A stretch of DNA of 64,000 nucleotides from contig JACRME010000009.1 in NCBI GenBank assembly GCA_016235045.1, forward strand, positions 1 to 64,000, in the 5' to 3' direction. The position numbers were made by a program, and so were the translations under genes. The notes under the pieces are model-generated. The model was not told the DNA's origin. It saw only the letters and a program-made list of their open reading frames with translations, and ran no database searches. Source of the DNA: Nitrosomonadales bacterium (GTDB lineage Bacteria; Pseudomonadota; Gammaproteobacteria; Burkholderiales; Gallionellaceae). The first letter of the stretch is position 1. Every line of letters starts with the position of its first letter. Below are positions 24,311 to 35,817 of this stretch, one piece after another.

Positions 24311-24378
24311 GTTGGGTTGGGCGCAGCGATACTCCATTGATGTCAGCCGCAACGGGGGATCGCTACGCCCAACCCAAC
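24311..24378. repeat. Dispersed palindromic repeat (GGGTTGRGCG family), intergenic
   Basis: 20-bp arms GTTGGGTTGGGCGCAGCGAT and ATCGCTACGCCCAACCCAAC (24311-24330, 24359-24378) pair with one G-T/mismatch around a 28-nt loop. The core GGGTTG(G/A)GCGCAGCGATAC is shared with the repeat inside mutL at 34560-34641. It separates arnB from the convergent chemoreceptor gene and could also end both transcripts. Confidence 0.75.
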
Positions 24379-28809: not shown

Positions 28810-28884
28810 GGATTTAGGAACTGGGATTTAGGAATTAGGAAAACCTTTTTTCTCCCTAAATCCCAAATCCAAAATCCCAAATCC
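28810..28884. repeat. GGGATTTAGG-type inverted repeat next to the arnD start
   Basis: GGATTTAG units run on one arm (GGGATTTAGG, 28823-28832) and the complementary CCTAAATCCC (28855-28864) continues as repeated AAATCC units up to the arnD start codon. The element is AT-richer than its surroundings and fills the whole spacer between the decarboxylase gene and arnD. Confidence 0.7.
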
Positions 28885-28888
28885 TCGA

Positions 28889-29785
28889 ATGAAAAAGATC
28901 GCCCTCAAAATAGATGTCGACACCTATCGCGGCACGCGCGAAGGGGTGCCGCGTCTGGTGGAAGCGCTACAGCGCTACCGCGCCCAGGCGACCTTCTATT
29001 TTTCGCTGGGGCCGGATCACACCGGAAGAGCGATCAAGCGGGTTTTTCGTCCCGGCTTCCTGAACAAGGTTTCGCGCACTTCGGTGGTGGAACACTACGG
29101 TATTAAAACCCTGTTGTACGGCACGTTATTGCCGGGGCCGGACATCGGCCGCAATTGCGCGGACATCATGCGCAGTGTGCGCGATGCGGGGTTCGAGGTC
29201 GGGATTCATTGCTACGACCACATTCGCTGGCAGGATCACGTGGCGGAGAAAAACGCCAAATGGACCAAGCGCGAGATGCAACGCGCAGTCGACCGCTTCA
29301 CCGAGATATTCGGCGAAGCGCCCAAAGGCCATGCAGCCGCGGGCTGGCAGACCAATCGCCATGGTTTGCGGCAGACGCAGCATCTGGGCTTCGACTACAG
29401 TTCGGACACGCGTGGTTCGCGCCCTTTCATTCCGACCTGGGATGCGGAAATCATTGCCTGTCCGCAATTGCCGACAACCTTGCCGACGCTGGACGAACTC
29501 ATCGGCCGCGACGACATTACGACCCGGAATGTTGCCCAGCATCTGCTGAATATCACGCGAACACCCTCGGAAACCGGGCATGTCTATACCCTGCATGCCG
29601 AACTGGAAGGGCAGAAATGGATGCCGATATTTGAGCAACTTCTGCAGGGTTGGAGCGACCAGGGTTATGAACTTGTTTCGATGCGGCAATACCTGCAGGG
29701 ATTCAAGCTTGCCGATCTGCCGTGTTTTGAAGTTAAACCGGGAACGGTAGAGGGACGCAGTGGTACGCTCGCGGTGCAAGCCTGA
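28889..29785 (+). CDS. arnD: 4-deoxy-4-formamido-L-arabinose-phosphoundecaprenol deformylase
   Basis: 298-residue polysaccharide deacetylase (NodB) fold. KIDVDTYRGTREGVP holds the first metal-binding Asp motif, VGIHCYDHIRWQDH the His pair, and AAGWQTNRHGL and YSSDTRGSRPF are ArnD-specific. ArnD removes the formyl group after transfer to undecaprenyl phosphate. No Shine-Dalgarno sequence precedes the ATG: the position is taken up by the AAATCC repeat. It ends the arn locus. Confidence 0.94.
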   Translation: MKKIALKIDVDTYRGTREGVPRLVEALQRYRAQATFYFSLGPDHTGRAIKRVFRPGFLNKVSRTSVVEHYGIKTLLYGTLLPGPDIGRNCADIMRSVRDAGFEVGIHCYDHIRWQDHVAEKNAKWTKREMQRAVDRFTEIFGEAPKGHAAAGWQTNRHGLRQTQHLGFDYSSDTRGSRPFIPTWDAEIIACPQLPTTLPTLDELIGRDDITTRNVAQHLLNITRTPSETGHVYTLHAELEGQKWMPIFEQLLQGWSDQGYELVSMRQYLQGFKLADLPCFEVKPGTVEGRSGTLAVQA

Positions 29786-30699: not shown

Positions 30700-31724
30700 G
30701 ACAGCAACTCCGTCTCGATCAACTCCCTGACCTGCAGTTCGAAGCCCGCCGACAGGCAATCCACCCCGATGTTCTCCATACTGCGCAACCAGGTGAGTTG
30801 GCGTTTTGCCAGTTGCCGCGTGGCGGCGATGCCTTTGTCCAATAGCCCGGCTTCGTCGATCTCGCCTTCCATGTATTCCCAAGCCTGCCGGTAACCGACG
30901 CAGCGCATCGAAGTCATGTCGCGGTGCAGCGGATATTTCACGCGCAAGCCGCGCAACTCGTCCACCAGCCCATCCTTCAGCATCTGCTGGAAACGCGTGG
31001 CGATGCGCTGGTGCAGCACGGCGCGGTCGGAAGGGATGAGCGCGATGGAGAGAATCCGGTACGGCAAATAATCGGCATCCCTCTCCCGGCCTTCGGCTAC
31101 CCTCTCCCCCAACCCCTCTCCCGCTTGCGGGAGAGGGTGGCCGCAGGCCGGGAGAGGGTTTGAGGGTAAGGAAGGCTTTTTGAGCAATTCCGACATTGGC
31201 CTGCCCGAGACGAGGAATATCTCCATCGCGCGCTGGATGCGTTGTGTATCAGTGGCATGCAGCCGCGCGGCAGTCGCGGCATCCACCTTGGCGAGTTCGG
31301 CATGCAGATGCTCGATGCCGTGCTGCGCAATGATCGTATCCAGCTTCGCGCGCACCTCGGCATCGGCCTGCGGCAAGGGGCTCAGCCCTTCGCGCAGCGC
31401 CTTGAAGTACAGCATCGTCCCACCCACCAGCAAGGGAATCCTGCCGCGCGCGGTGATGTCCGCCATCAGGCGCAGCGCATCATGGCGGAAGGCGGCAGCA
31501 GAGTAGGCTTCAGTGGGATTGATGATGTCGATGAGATGATGCGGCGCATGGGCTTGCGTGGCGGCATCCGGCTTGGCGGTGCCGATGTCCATATCGCGGA
31601 ACACCAGTGCGGAATCCACGCTGATGAGTTCAACGGGCAGATGCTGCGCGAGTTCCACCGCTACGCCGGTCTTGCCGCTGGCGGTGGAGCCCATGAGGAA
31701 AATGGCGGGGGGGAGAGTATTCAT
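30690..31724 (-). CDS. miaA: tRNA dimethylallyltransferase with repeat-encoded insert
   Basis: 344-residue MiaA, which adds dimethylallyl to A37 of tRNAs reading UNN codons. The P-loop is [11 protein letters not shown], with [23 protein letters not shown] and [15 protein letters not shown] following. An unusual stretch at about residues 185-218, rich in Pro, Gly and Arg ([18 protein letters not shown]...), interrupts the homology between MSELLKK and DADYLPY and is encoded by a palindromic repeat. Two starts are possible: this ATG, and a GTG at 31745 with GGGAGG upstream. E. coli has mutL-miaA adjacent; here two genes intervene. Confidence 0.93.
31079..31158. repeat. Palindromic repeat inside miaA (CCCTCTCCCGG family)
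   Basis: Outer arms CCCTCTCCCGGCCT and AGGCCGGGAGAGGG (31079-31092, 31145-31158) are a perfect 14-bp match. Nested within, CCCTCTCCCGC and GCGGGAGAGGG (31114-31124, 31127-31137) form a second perfect hairpin. The whole 80 bp is translated in frame as MiaA residues 189-216. Confidence 0.85.
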
Positions 31725-31750
31725 GCGGAACGAGTTACTGCGCACAGTAC

Positions 31751-31851
31751 TCCCTCCCCCTTGCAGGGGGAGGGTTGGGGTGGGGGTAGAAGCGTGGCTG
31801 CATCAGCAAATTTTACCCCCATCCTAGCCTTCCCCCTGCAAGGGGGAAGGA
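31751..31851. repeat. Palindromic repeat (TCCCTCCCCCTTGCAGGGGG family), intergenic copy
   Basis: 38-bp arms at 31751-31788 and 31814-31851 differ at 5 positions, all of which still allow G-U pairs in RNA. It fills the space between the transporter stop and the miaA start. The same element, with near-identical arms, lies inside the transporter gene at 32515-32613. Its GGGAGGGAG edge could serve as a ribosome site for the GTG start of miaA. Confidence 0.85.
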
Positions 31852-31879
31852 ACTGATAGCGCTAATGAATTAAATTGGC

Positions 31880-33283
31880 TCATGCTAATTCGCTGTCCCG
31901 TGTTTCATGTATTGCAAACGCAGCCAGCACGCTGATCGACGCCGCCACCGAGATATACCCGCCCACCCAACCGAGTCCGCCGTGCTGCACCAGTTGCTGC
32001 GCGATGTAGGGTGCCAGCGAAGCACCCAGGATGCCGCCCAGGTTATAGGCCGCACCCGCACCGGTATAGCGCACCGCAGTCGGGAACAATTCCGGCAACA
32101 GCGCCCCCATCGGCGCAAAGGTCGCGCCCATCAGGAACAGTTCGAGCGAGAGGAATGCGGTGATCTGCAATATGGAGCCACTGTTCAACATCGGCTCCAT
32201 CAAAAAGCCGGAGAGCAATGCGGCGATGCCCGCGACGATCAGCACCGGGCGACGGCCAAAACGGTCGCCTGCGATTGCGGCAAGCGGTGTCGCCGCCGCC
32301 ATGAAAATGACCGCGATGCACAACATGCCGAGGAAATCGGGGCGCGCGATACCGAGCTTGGACACGCCGTAGCTCAGGCTGAACACCGTGGTGAGATAGA
32401 AAAGCGCATAGCACACCACCATCAGCAAAGCGCCCAGAACCAGCTGTTTGGTGTGGTAGGCGAAGAGTTGCGCCAGAGGAATCTTCTTAACATCCGTTCG
32501 TATGGAACCTGCATTCCCTCCCCCTTGCAGGGGGAGGGTTAGGGTGGGGGTAGAATCCGTGCTACTCACCGACTCTACCCCCATCCCAGCCTTCCCCCTG
32601 CAAGGGGGAAGGAGTTTTTGTTCCTGCATCGCCTTCAAAAACACCGGCGTCTCCTCCAGCTTCAGCCGCACATAAAGCCCGACCACCACCAGTACTGCGC
32701 TGGCAAGAAAAGGAATGCGCCAGCCCCAGTCGCGGAACGCAGCATCGTCGAGCGTATTCGCCAGCAACAGGAAACTGCCCACCGCAAACAGGAAACCCAC
32801 AGGGGGCCCCAACTGCGGAAACATCCCGAACCAGCCGCGCTTACCCCTGGGCGCATATTCCGCAGCCAGCAAAGCCGCGCCGCCCCATTCACCGCCAAGG
32901 CCGATGCCCTGCCCGAAGCGCAACAGGCACAACAACGCAGGCGCCACCCAGCCCACCATCTCGTAGCTCGGCAGCACGCCGATGAGCGTGGTGGAGACAC
33001 CCATCACCAGCAGCGAAGCCACCAGCGTCGTCTTGCGCCCGATGCGGTCGCCGAAATGGCCGAACAGCAGCGCGCCGAACGGGCGCGCGAGGAAGGCGAT
33101 GCCGAAAGTGAGGAAAGCGTTCAGCGCCTGCACCGCCGGGTCGCTGTTGGGAAAAAAGATCGGCCCGATCACCATCGCTACAGCGAGGCCGTAGATGTAG
33201 AAATCGTAGAACTCGATAGCGGTGCCGATGAAGGAGGCGAAGGCGATGCGGGTGGTGGAGAAAGATGGTGTAAAGGTGTTCAA
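31880..33283 (-). CDS. MHS-family MFS transporter with repeat-encoded insert
   Basis: 467-residue major facilitator of the metabolite:H+ symporter (ShiA/ProP-like) group, about 12 transmembrane helices. Family motifs: IEFYDFYIYG in helix 1, FGHFGDRIGRKTTLV in the 2-3 loop, RFGQGIGLGGEWGGA and YAPRGKRGWFGM. The central cytoplasmic loop holds an extra stretch (about residues 224-257, including PPCRGKAGMG and LTLPLQGGG) encoded by a palindromic repeat. The start is TTG; no ATG or GTG lies in frame near the first helix and no clear ribosome site is seen. The substrate is unknown. Confidence 0.87.
   Translation of the reverse strand: MNTFTPSFSTTRIAFASFIGTAIEFYDFYIYGLAVAMVIGPIFFPNSDPAVQALNAFLTFGIAFLARPFGALLFGHFGDRIGRKTTLVASLLVMGVSTTLIGVLPSYEMVGWVAPALLCLLRFGQGIGLGGEWGGAALLAAEYAPRGKRGWFGMFPQLGPPVGFLFAVGSFLLLANTLDDAAFRDWGWRIPFLASAVLVVVGLYVRLKLEETPVFLKAMQEQKLLPPCRGKAGMGVESVSSTDSTPTLTLPLQGGGNAGSIRTDVKKIPLAQLFAYHTKQLVLGALLMVVCYALFYLTTVFSLSYGVSKLGIARPDFLGMLCIAVIFMAAATPLAAIAGDRFGRRPVLIVAGIAALLSGFLMEPMLNSGSILQITAFLSLELFLMGATFAPMGALLPELFPTAVRYTGAGAAYNLGGILGASLAPYIAQQLVQHGGLGWVGGYISVAASISVLAAFAIHETRDSELA
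32515..32613. repeat. Palindromic repeat inside the transporter gene, in frame
   Basis: 40-bp arms (32515-32554, 32574-32613) start TCCCTCCCCCTTGCAGGGGG and are imperfectly complementary. The element is 99 bp, exactly 33 codons, and has no stop codon in the transporter frame. It is a close copy of the intergenic repeat at 31751-31851, 0.7 kb away. Confidence 0.87.
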
Positions 33284-33333
33284 GGTGGCTATCTGTGCTG
33301 TTATGTTTAAACGGGCATTGAGGTTTTTGTGGG

Positions 33334-33879
33334 CTACTGCCCAATGTGTCGATTCGAATCAGCATGCTCCGAATTGGAAATCTGATGAATGGCGTTTTCA
33401 TCCCTTGTTTTTACATGTGGCCCTTTTGTTGAATTTTTTTGTGAAAAGGACATAACAAATATGAATGCAAGAAATGCACAAAACATAAGCCATAGCCATC
33501 GCCACAACAAAGATTTTTTGAATCGAGTGGTTATCAGTTCATTTTTTGGTTCGTTTTGACACTGCTGAATTCCTTCGATTTGCAGTTTCTTACGTTTCCT
33601 CGCGAAGTCCCACCAAGAAATGAGACCAAGCACGACTCCACTTGGAATGCACAAAAAGAGCCAAACCCACGTTGTCGTAATTATTGGCCGACCAAATATT
33701 ATGGCTAGTGGAAAAATAAATAAGGCACCAAATGCAAGAGATGACAGCGTATACAACAACACAAACCACAACCCACGCAATCTAACCGTTTTGGATTCAT
33801 CCCATAAAGATGGAAATAGCCAGATGGGGAGTGTGTCGAAGTTATACGGTACGCCCGAAACGTTTGGATCAGGCTTCAT
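33334..33879 (-). CDS. Hypothetical membrane protein, AT-rich
   Basis: 181 residues with three hydrophobic segments (about 36-58, 66-88, 127-145). The middle is basic (ARKRKKLQ) and the C-terminal tail polar. No family is recognised. The start has AAAGGA 5 nt upstream. The gene is clearly AT-richer than its neighbours and uses AT-ending codons, which suggests acquisition from elsewhere. With the transporter it separates mutL from miaA. Its end lies 50 bp before the transporter start on the same strand. Confidence 0.65.
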   Translation of the reverse strand: MKPDPNVSGVPYNFDTLPIWLFPSLWDESKTVRLRGLWFVLLYTLSSLAFGALFIFPLAIIFGRPIITTTWVWLFLCIPSGVVLGLISWWDFARKRKKLQIEGIQQCQNEPKNELITTRFKKSLLWRWLWLMFCAFLAFIFVMSFSQKNSTKGPHVKTRDENAIHQISNSEHADSNRHIGQ

Positions 33880-33966
33880 GTCATCCTTTCTTTCCGGGTG
33901 TTTTTTTCATATTAATAGAACTCAATAGCACGGTTTGCGTCGCAGCTCCAAGTTTGAATTCTCATT

Positions 33967-35817
33967 TCATTTCCCCCGCATAAACATCGCATCCAATTCC
34001 GCCAGCGTCACCTGGAACCATGTCGGCCTTCCGTGGTTGCACTGGTCAGCGCGTTCGGTCTGTTCCATCTCGCGCAGGATGGCGTTCATTTCGGGGATGC
34101 TGAGTTGCTGGTTGGCGCGCACGGCGGAATGGCAGGCGAGGGTGGCGAGCAATTCGTTGCGGCGTTCGGTGAGGGCGCGGCTGGCGCCGAAGTCGCGCAG
34201 TTCGTGCAGCACTTCGCGCGCTGCGGTTTCGGCGTGCGATTGCTTGAGCATGGCGGGCATGGCGCGCACCGCCAAGGTGTTGGTGGAGATGGGAGCGATG
34301 TCGAAACCGAGGCGCTGCAAAGCTTCCTGTTCTTCTTCGGCGGTGGCGATGGCTAGCGCGTCGGCGGCGAAGGTGACGGGGATGAGCAGCGGTTGGGTGG
34401 GCATCTGCTGGGCGTCGAAGGCGGTCTTCAGTCTTTCGTACACGATGCGTTCGTGGGCGGCGTGCATGTCTACCACGATGAGGCCTTGCTGGTTCTGGGC
34501 GAGGATGTAGATGCCGGACAACTGACCTAATGCGAACCCGAGCGGATGTTCGGTCTGTTGTAGGATGGGTTGAGCGGAGCGATACCCATCGTTAGCTTGC
34601 GATGAAGATTGATGGGTATCGCTGCGCTCAACCCATCCTACGTTGTCGCGTACGACTGCGGCTTCTTCCCATAGTTTGTAGGCGGCCTGAGGTTGGGCGG
34701 CTCTGAAGGAAATACTTTGTTGCTGAACGGCTGAGTTCCCGTCATTCCGGCGGAGGCCGGAATCCAGCGCATTTGTTGAAGAACTGGACTCCGGCCTGCG
34801 CCGGAGTGACGAATCCGGCGTTTCGCTTTCCATCGGCACACTCAGCGCATCCTGTAGCGCATGGAACACGAACTGGTGGATGGCCTGACTCTCGCGGAAG
34901 CGCACTTCGCTCTTGGCGGGATGCACGTTCACGTCCACCTGTTCTGGCGGCATGTCGAGGAACAGCACGAAGGCGGGGTGGCGCTGGTGGTGCAGGATGT
35001 CCTGATAGGCCTGGCGCACGGCGTGCATCAGCACCTTGTCGCGCACGAAGCGGCCGTTGACGAAGAAGTATTGTTCGTCGCGGGTGGAGCGGGAATAGGC
35101 GGGCAGGGCGGCGATGCCGTAGAGGTGCAGGGGGCCGATCTGGCGTTCGACATTTACCGCATGCTGGCCGAATTCGGTGCCGAGGATGGAAGTGATGCGC
35201 TGCGGCAGGTCGTGCCTGGGCAGTTGCCAAGCGCTTTTGCCGTTGTGTTGCAACGAGAACGCCACATCCGGTCGCGACAGCGCGATGCGTTTGAAGGTCT
35301 CTTCGCACCAGGCGTATTCGGTACTTTCGCTCTTGAGGAATTTACGCCGCGCCGGGGTGTTGAAGTACAGCTCGCGCATCTCGACGCTGGTGCCGTGCGC
35401 ATGGGCAGCGGGGGCGGCGGCGCTTTGTGTGCCGTCAGCGGCCTCGATCTTCCAGGCATGCTCGGCATCGGCGTTGCGGCTGGTGAGGGTGACCTGCGCC
35501 ACGGCGGCCATGCTGGCCAGCGCTTCACCGCGGAAGCCCATGCTGGCGACGCGCTGCAGGTCGTCGAGCGAGGCGATCTTGCTGGTGGCGTGGCGCATCA
35601 GTGCCAGCGGCAGTTCGGTCTGCGCGATCCCTTTGCCGTTGTCGCGTACCACCAGGCGCTTGATGCCGCCGCCTTCAAGTTGCACGGCGATCTCGGTTGC
35701 GCCCGCATCGAGGCTGTTCTCCAGCAGTTCTTTCAGGGCGGAAGCGGGGCGTTCTATCACTTCGCCGGCGGCGATCTGGTTGATGAGGAGGTCGGGAAGC
35801 AGATGGATGGAAGGCAT
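33967..35817 (-). CDS. mutL: DNA mismatch repair protein MutL with two repeat-encoded linker inserts
   Basis: 616 residues. The GHKL ATPase N-terminus is complete: ENSLDAGAT, RDNGKGI, GFRGEALASMAAVA. The C-terminal domain carries DMHAAHERIVYE, which fits the DxHAx2Ex4E endonuclease motif (Gln replaced by Met, as in Neisseria MutL), plus ACHSAVRANQ and CNHGRPTWFQV. So this is the nicking type used where there is no MutH. The linker (residues about 336-420) contains two peptides encoded by different palindromic repeats (SSLRRRPESSSST..., GWVERSDTHQSSS...). The linker is naturally variable, so function is probably kept. Confidence 0.95.
   Translation of the reverse strand: MPSIHLLPDLLINQIAAGEVIERPASALKELLENSLDAGATEIAVQLEGGGIKRLVVRDNGKGIAQTELPLALMRHATSKIASLDDLQRVASMGFRGEALASMAAVAQVTLTSRNADAEHAWKIEAADGTQSAAAPAAHAHGTSVEMRELYFNTPARRKFLKSESTEYAWCEETFKRIALSRPDVAFSLQHNGKSAWQLPRHDLPQRITSILGTEFGQHAVNVERQIGPLHLYGIAALPAYSRSTRDEQYFFVNGRFVRDKVLMHAVRQAYQDILHHQRHPAFVLFLDMPPEQVDVNVHPAKSEVRFRESQAIHQFVFHALQDALSVPMESETPDSSLRRRPESSSSTNALDSGLRRNDGNSAVQQQSISFRAAQPQAAYKLWEEAAVVRDNVGWVERSDTHQSSSQANDGYRSAQPILQQTEHPLGFALGQLSGIYILAQNQQGLIVVDMHAAHERIVYERLKTAFDAQQMPTQPLLIPVTFAADALAIATAEEEQEALQRLGFDIAPISTNTLAVRAMPAMLKQSHAETAAREVLHELRDFGASRALTERRNELLATLACHSAVRANQQLSIPEMNAILREMEQTERADQCNHGRPTWFQVTLAELDAMFMRGK
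34560..34641. repeat. Palindromic repeat inside mutL (GGGTTGAGCG family)
   Basis: 31-bp arms at 34560-34590 and 34611-34641 (GTAGGATGGGTTGAGCG...) are complementary with one mismatch; the loop is 20 nt. It is translated in frame as MutL residues 393-420. It is related to the intergenic repeat after arnB (24311-24378). Confidence 0.88.
34740..34811. repeat. Palindromic repeat inside mutL (GTCATTCCGGCG family)
   Basis: 27-bp arms at 34741-34767 and 34784-34810 match with three mismatches. The 72-bp unit (24 codons) encodes MutL residues 336-360 without a stop. Sequences of the type GTCATTCCGGCGNAGGCCGG are a widespread dispersed repeat class in proteobacterial genomes. Confidence 0.85.

Follow-up and report, generated by a model that had tools for sequence, protein, structure and literature searches.

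Miniature palindromic repeats have entered three neighbouring genes in frame in a 64,000-nucleotide stretch of DNA from a Nitrosomonadales bacterium (contig JACRME010000009.1 of GCA_016235045.1; G000:C33:1-64000 in our labels and "the window" below). The genes are miaA, a gene for an MHS/MFS-type transporter and mutL; the genome to which they belong, G000 or the own genome, is a draft of 3,145,614 bases in 33 contigs. The palindromes are repeats of the repetitive extragenic palindromic (REP) type, two of them members of the published GTAG and CGTC superfamilies. We consider it probable (about 85%) that such repeats spread as small non-autonomous mobile DNA and that the copies now residing in genes are insertions that have passed selection. 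We infer that these survivors were filtered rather than targeted.

The window has one such element in miaA, one in the transporter gene and two in mutL (Table 1), and all four are free of stop codons in the frame of their gene, as a preliminary description of this DNA had proposed. Also as described, they represent four families, named here by their arms: CTCT (MiaA), CCTT (transporter), GTAG and CGTC (both MutL). A fifth, intergenic palindrome matches the transporter element and is likewise CCTT. An inverted-repeat search gave four of the five palindromes; the CGTC element, which that search did not list, was detected by its pattern. In the first MutL element (34560-34641), the GTAG tag stands at the outer end of the palindrome and both arms start GTAGGATGGGT, and the second (34740-34811) is a short palindrome with a CGTC tag and arms CGTCATTCCGGCG. 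The CTCT and CCTT patterns (CCCTCTCCCGCNNGCGGGAGAGGG and CCTTCCCCCTTGCAGGGGGAAGG) have neither tag; these two families look REP-like, outside the GTAG and CGTC superfamilies. The statement that each extra peptide is encoded exactly by an inverted repeat was too strong, since the net insert in MiaA is about 31 amino acids (93 nucleotides) against a palindrome of 80 bp, and part of the transporter insert seems to be what remains of another, older palindrome.

The inserts of MiaA and MutL lie in a loop and an interdomain linker, respectively. The alignment of MiaA to PDB chain 2zm5_A, which we take to be from E. coli, breaks exactly around the insert, at chain residues 187–189. In a structure model of our MiaA (whole-model predicted local distance difference test score, pLDDT, 78.1), insert residues 183–215 are predicted to be disordered, with pLDDT below 50, between a helix and a strand. 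In MutL, the Pfam domains DNA_mis_repair (208–325) and MutL_C (430–572) bracket both inserts, and unstructured linker arms of MutL are the subject of PMC6902014. The MutL structure model has a mean pLDDT of 53.6 and was not used as evidence.

All four families are dispersed through the own genome. Using arm patterns with up to 3 mismatches (up to 2 for CTCT), which miss more divergent copies, we found 32 strand matches for GTAG, 96 for CGTC, 87 for CCTT and 100 (50 palindromes) for CTCT in 3.15 Mb. The reversed arm patterns gave no match for any of the four families; thus, the palindromes are not due to chance. When clustered within 150 bases, the matches resolve into 23 GTAG, 63 CGTC, 63 CCTT and 43 CTCT places, 192 in total, and nine of the GTAG places have two arms within 3 mismatches.

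To call an element genic, we required one stop-free frame through it, with at least 25 codons of coding score above 4 on either side. The codon model was trained on long open reading frames (ORFs), and the surroundings of the elements came to about 523 kb, with fewer than 75 bases on one side of two of the 192. By this definition, genic copies occur at many other places in the genome, 39 of the 192 in all: 22 of 43 CTCT, 14 of 63 CCTT, 2 of 63 CGTC and 1 of 23 GTAG elements. The places not called genic include 49 of the CCTT and 21 of the CTCT elements. Coding sequence on the same strand on both sides, interrupted by a stop or a change of frame, was seen at 6 elements at a score limit of 4, giving 39 genic to 6 frame-broken elements, and 38 to 5 at a limit of 6; some frame-broken elements may simply lie between two genes. 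The 39 genic elements occupy 33 ORFs, every one with a Pfam match at E ≤ 0.001. As read from the Pfam domains, the hosts include Mfd, CoaBC, CysS, DNA polymerase I, LeuS, RecG, a DinG-type helicase, PurL (two elements), an AddA-like helicase (three), an AddB-like nuclease (two), FadB, AcrB, MnmC, AroA-Cmk, FolC, Lnt, HrpA, a GluQ-RS-like protein and an RlmI-like protein. Relative to the envelope of the best stretch of each domain family (further stretches of multi-stretch families are not in this tally), 26 of the 39 elements fall between domains or beyond them, and the other 13 are inside an envelope or in a split domain. The first arm of the genic CTCT elements is read as PSPxxGRG in 10 of 22 cases, as PLPxAGEG in another 10 and as LSRxRER in only 2. 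The rarity of the last frame (p = 0.009 against one third) suggests better tolerance of Pro/Gly peptides, which are loop-like.

Two other explanations bear on these counts. One is that misassembly or wrong gene models have created apparent inserts in what is, after all, a 33-contig draft. Given that coding potential continues in one frame on both sides, that the ORFs have Pfam domains and that these sites are occupied in other genomes too, by the same insert or a different one, we attach almost no weight to it. The other is that the elements actively prefer coding sequence or certain genes, such as those of DNA repair and tRNA enzymes, and for example create mutators. Seven of the 33 host ORFs are indeed repair genes (MutL, AddA-like with three elements, AddB-like with two, PolA, RecG, Mfd and DinG), CysS, LeuS, the GluQ-RS-like protein, MnmC, MiaA and the RlmI-like protein are among the other hosts, and the passages of Di Nocera et al. 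(2013; PMC3733652) report hits in the same gene classes in other species. However, the repair excess has p = 1e-4 against an assumed background of 3.5% and p = 0.003 against an assumed 6%; the repair hosts are long multidomain proteins with linkers; and the MutL inserts avoid the conserved domains. A preference for genes was rejected on the ground that only 39 of 192 elements are genic, although bacterial genomes in general consist largely of coding sequence, and a preference for particular genes is unlikely. The earlier idea of mobile palindromes that tolerate or favour coding positions is thus supported for tolerance, with 39 in-frame copies, and not supported for favour, even though CTCT reaches 22 of 43.

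At least four genic elements fell within 3.7 kb in 1 of 5000 random placements, so the clustering in the window is real. It had been called unusual, and it is not unique: an AddA-like/AddB-like gene pair (G000:C12:48935-53766; loci L147, L098 and L091) carries five in-frame palindromes in 4.8 kb, denser than in the window.

Comparison with the genus (24 relatives) shows inserts missing from many orthologues and the same loops filled in other ways. MiaA was matched in 22 congeners, in 20 of which the insert is absent; G011 and G016 have an insert of the same family. When MiaA is aligned with loci of named genomes, the protein is longer here in 5 of the 20 other rows (L276, L283, L286, L291 and L296), of which L276 and L291 have CTCT-type peptides. 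The transporter, whose best named relatives are in metagenome-assembled genomes of Sideroxydans, Gammaproteobacteria, Gallionellaceae and Gallionella, was found in 13 congeners. Its loop measures 9 amino acids in 6 of these and 50 in G000; the CCTT insert is missing in 11, present in G013 and apparently, by eye, in G014. In G007, G012, G018 and G020 the loop instead holds a further family, ELVE (peptide VRPELVEG..STSSARTD), and in G010 yet another (by eye). The remnant at 32493-32509 of the window resembles, again by eye, the ends of the ELVE elements of G018/L277, G012/L264 and L291. Of 21 aligned MutL loci, 6 (G003, G005, G014, G016, G018 and G020) are filled at site A, own residue 201. Site B, from residue 331 onwards, carries CGTC-type inserts in 6 of 20 relatives (G013, G003, G004, G007, G018 and G019), and site C, near 392, carries GTAG inserts in 4 of 20, the G024 sequence ending before both sites; an 82-bp GTAG insert is common to the mutL genes of the own genome, G013, G003, G021 and G015. 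Other inverted repeats in the MutL linker, with arms of 14–32 nucleotides (counted without a chance control), occur in G011, G012, G016, G017 and G020. Several families are represented at sites B and C. This filling, site by site, shows that unrelated families repeatedly strike the same few loops. In-frame insertion, with many relatives lacking the insert, is thereby supported for MiaA and the transporter; not every insert is recent, since the two in MutL are shared with G013 and G003.

Separately, extra copies of the last 31–68 codons of mutL lie about 0.6–3.4 kb from the gene in several congeners (G014:C15:55302, G004:C1:1173771 and 1174719, G019:C39:4416, G011:C38:67013, G012:C23:24193 and G002:C102:1424), as if the 3′ end of mutL had served as an integration site.

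That both MutL inserts are common to the own genome, G013 and G003, and that between the own genome and G013 they differ little as protein (proportion of nonsynonymous differences, pN, 0.017 against 0.177 in the neighbouring linker), could also mean that selection has long maintained the peptides in the protein and that their palindromic DNA is incidental. We regard this as very improbable: the same families occupy 23 to 63 places each, mostly non-genic (CTCT being evenly split), the MiaA insert is missing from 20 of 22 congeners, and synonymous sites within the MutL inserts are conserved as well, which points to the DNA.

Insertion followed by selection would work as follows. The four REP-type families, with more in relatives, would insert regardless of genes, and gene-breaking insertions would be lost, so that genic survivors would mostly be frame-open, with their peptide in a flexible loop or interdomain linker. 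Tolerant places would be a transporter loop, the linker of MutL and, in MiaA, the loop near residue 188 of 2zm5_A. A loop once filled would remain permissive, so that different families would gather in a small number of loops, and a palindrome could enter another palindrome. The length of the CTCT and CCTT dimers shows the contrast expected if a frame filter acts on random insertions: the core length is 1 mod 3 in 7 of 8 genic dimers and in 6 of 23 others (Fisher p = 0.004; this class was picked after the data had been seen).

Several observations weigh against this account. The CGTC and GTAG dimers show no such contrast: the genic CGTC dimers measure 72 and 126 (0 mod 3), a class to which 13 of 31 others also belong, and the sole genic GTAG dimer measures 82. 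Open frames alone fail to explain why families differ in genic share: of 6 frames, single elements have on average 5.9 open in CTCT (17 of 36 genic), 4.9 in CGTC (0 of 30), 4.4 in CCTT (11 of 39) and 4.0 in GTAG (0 of 14). The GTAG insert of MutL is patchy: G004 and G008 lack it, and G021 and G015, with a less similar MutL, have it. Between the own genome and G013, 4.0 of 41.3 synonymous sites differ in the inserts, against 112.8 of 361.8 outside the linker (p = 0.003); the DNA of the palindromes may therefore be conserved or replaced in its own right. The contrast is weaker with G003 (proportion of synonymous differences, pS, 0.267 versus 0.41; pN 0.116 versus 0.18). Among the five GTAG inserts, all of 82 bp, joint changes in both arms occur at 1–2 positions in 5 of 10 genome pairs and at none in the other 5, and changes confined to one arm are found as well. 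Such a pattern could arise if other copies replaced the insert, if the arms repaired each other or if insertion happened repeatedly. Finally, a check of transposase flanks linked none of the CGTC, CCTT and CTCT families to a transposase.

The repeats are themselves invaded. In G013, the CCTT element of the transporter gene is split in frame by an element of 60 bases, and the same element splits ELVE repeats in G012 and L291. At up to 3 mismatches, all genomes of the genus but one (24 of 25) contain this nested hairpin, G000 with 31 copies, and none of 16 other genomes of the order does; a further G000 copy, with a deletion, lies in L046. Across the class, 1 of 368 other sampled genomes had a single copy (up to 2 mismatches). 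The 64-kb window contains none, nor was any found in viral contigs (exact 22-mer) or plasmids. Rfam gave 16 weak matches at the hairpin loci of L355, L264 and L291, none above the gathering score of its family.

We collected 94 distinct copies, complete for the G000 matches and partial for the relatives, 93 of them with both ends. After a T at the left junction, the element runs from GATGGAACTACTAGCCATTCGACTA through a stem and loop to AAGTCGCTGGTTAT at the right junction. Lengths of 54 bases (37 copies) and 60 bases (45) prevail, and 84 of the 93 are multiples of three. The preceding T is invariant (93 of 93, as CT in 77 and TT in 16), and C or G follows in 90 of 93. Compared with templates composed after the flanks had been read, the flanks matched CTCT (30), CGTC (19), ELVE (10), CCTT (9) or a CTCTGTG repeat (5); of 20 copies below the template limit, about 12 look by eye like variants of the same families. 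Within G000, 26 of the 31 copies passed a template, 4 of them CTCTGTG. Own-genome nested hairpins at L394, L395, L397 and L400 sit in this CTCTGTG-type repeat, which is non-palindromic, so REPs are not the sole targets. A 5-bp stem starts at the junction in 40 of 92 right flanks, compared with 137 of 3000 YT-S sites of the window.

The stem of the nested hairpin covaries and has an unpaired TT/C bulge. Across 38 of the 39 distinct 60-base copies (L111 was left out), 8 of 15 pairs are changed on both sides, with 32 such compensated cells against 6.6 in shuffles, a contrast that is not a probability because the copies are related. CTAG, not GTAG, stands ahead of the bulged stem in 88 of 92 copies. 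Under the coding test used above, 20 of the 93 copies are in frame within genes, 5 of them in G000, with hosts that include Mfd, PurL, DinG and the MutL of G005. Three of the six frames are usually open. With lengths that are multiples of three and with open frames, the hairpin can enter genic repeats without breaking the gene. Selection for such lengths was not shown (20 of 20 genic and 64 of 73 non-genic copies, p = 0.20), and two ancestral lengths suffice to explain them.

Two individual loci deserve mention. L037 (G000 C13 near 13821) is a triple nest: the nested hairpin, 111 bases in all, lies inside an ELVE element, and its loop carries about 57 extra bases with an inverted repeat of their own. 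The truncated copy in L398 at first suggested a longer element ending there; this was dropped, as inspection by eye, with no family scan, showed no transposase-like ORF in its stretch.

How might these elements move? In vitro, TnpA-REP cleaves a single strand at a CT beside a REP hairpin; the GTAG tetranucleotide takes part in choosing the site, and a bulge is required in the E. coli system (PMC8266576, in part). The own genome gave seven Y1 matches. The Y1 genes of L125, L126 and L127 are flanked (by eye), as in TnpA-REP/RAYT systems, by GTAG-type palindromes other than the GTAG family of MutL; a short string of that family occurs in Y1 loci L121, L122 and L124. No flanking CGTC pair was found within 250 bases of six Y1 ORFs examined, and short CGTC-like strings stand farther from the ORFs in L122 and L127. 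GTAG-type repeats would be moved by single-strand transposition through a Y1 (TnpA-REP) enzyme, and CGTC, CCTT and CTCT by another enzyme. The nested hairpin resembles the TnpA-REP substrates of PMC8266576 in its AG-ending tetranucleotide, its bulged stem and the mostly CT dinucleotide before it, and this anatomy suggests a Y1 (TnpA-REP-like) transposase as its mover. Unlike those substrates, as far as the passages describe them, it has CTAG rather than GTAG, ends in TTAT, targets other repeat families and was not seen beside a transposase gene; no copy was present in any fetched Y1 locus. A Y1 enzyme that binds REP hairpins would open them at YT and insert the nested hairpin there. We put even odds on the nested hairpin being a second-order REP parasite of this kind, a single-stranded mover entering at pyrimidine-T beside unrelated REP hairpins with the help of a REP-binding Y1 transposase.

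Because intragenic REPs were published in 2013 (PMC3733652), the idea of palindromes inside genes is right and not new. The passages of that paper describe the GTAG and CGTC superfamilies, intragenic copies and tolerance in linkers, note replication and repair genes among the hosts and propose the creation of mutators. Our elements are like those REPs in GTAG and CGTC tags, kind of palindrome, the occurrence of head-to-head dimers, intragenic copies, genes struck twice, hosts among DNA-repair and tRNA genes, and a CGTC family without transposase. They differ, so far as the passages go, in that most genic copies come from two further G+C-rich families, CTCT and CCTT, that congeners have unrelated families at shared sites and that a smaller hairpin nests inside. 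The nearest parallel there is recB, which in two Xanthomonas species has different REPs at approximately one site. The comparison with the palindromic elements of Rickettsia (RPEs) made in the preliminary description was apt: the paper identifies RPE-4 and RPE-6 of R. conorii with the intragenic repeats it describes, and RPEs are likewise in-frame palindromic repeats within conserved protein genes, as are our 39 elements in 33 ORFs. Unlike RPEs, to which they are likened by description, the present families are abundant outside genes too. Insertion sequences with REPs as specific targets are known (Tobes and Pareja 2006; PMC1525189, in part), so REPs are targeted by another mobile element there as here; those insertion sequences bear a transposase, whereas the nested hairpin is gene-less, 54/60 bp long and enters at least four unrelated palindrome families. 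The passages of the RepRanger paper (PMC12306157) show no intragenic REPs. Two literal forms of the core of the nested hairpin matched no paper in a collection without most subscription papers, and none of the papers listed there on related subjects describes it in its title or opening lines. The literature consulted does not extend to the additional families in genes, to loops that are filled again and again or, most of all, to the nested hairpin.

Table 1. Genes and palindromic elements at the centre of the window.
Feature	Position	Strand	Evidence
miaA, tRNA isopentenyltransferase, with palindrome-coded loop	30690..31745	-	Pfam IPPT, E 7e-83
CTCT-family palindrome in MiaA, in frame, CCCTCTCCC..GGGAGAGGG	31079..31158	-	34-nt arms, 91% complementary
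CCTT-family palindrome, intergenic, miaA / MHS gene	31751..31851	.	41-nt arms, 85% complementary; CCTT pattern matches both strands
MHS/MFS-type transporter gene	31880..33283	-	Pfam Sugar_tr, E 8.6e-38
Probable remnant, 3′ end of an older ELVE-family palindrome, ACGAACGGA, adjoining the CCTT element	32493..32509	-	by eye
CCTT-family palindrome in transporter loop, in frame	32504..32624 (core 32516-32612)	-	inverted repeat and pattern
mutL, with two palindrome-coded inserts in interdomain linker	33967..35817	-	Pfam domains on either side
GTAG-superfamily REP dimer in MutL, peptide VGWVERSDTHQSSSQANDGYRSAQPILQ	34560..34641	-	31-nt arms, 97% complementary
CGTC-superfamily REP dimer in MutL, peptide SSLRRRPESSSSTNALDSGLRRNDG	34740..34811	-	pattern on both strands, 0 and 2 mismatches

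The native start of miaA is probably the ATG of MNTLPP. Between the transporter gene and mutL lies a gene for a hypothetical protein (33334-33879, minus strand) with a weak DUF6057 match below the cut-off. Elsewhere in the window, an additional GTAG-like palindrome, GTTGGGTTGGGCGCAGCGATAC, with arms 86% complementary, is found at 24311-24378, and an A+T-richer inverted repeat, GGATTTAGG..CCTAAATCC, at 28810-28877, just ahead of an ORF at 28889; the latter is of another kind than the four families.

Orthologues without the inserts show how new peptide segments can reach conserved proteins through mobile palindromes, which have landed again and again in loops of miaA, mutL and similar genes. Insertion events have also left a natural record in the nested hairpin, whose exact junctions in more than 90 copies make the spread of REPs, and the enzyme behind it, directly testable. 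If our reading of it is true, the nested hairpin builds proteins with palindromes inside palindromes.

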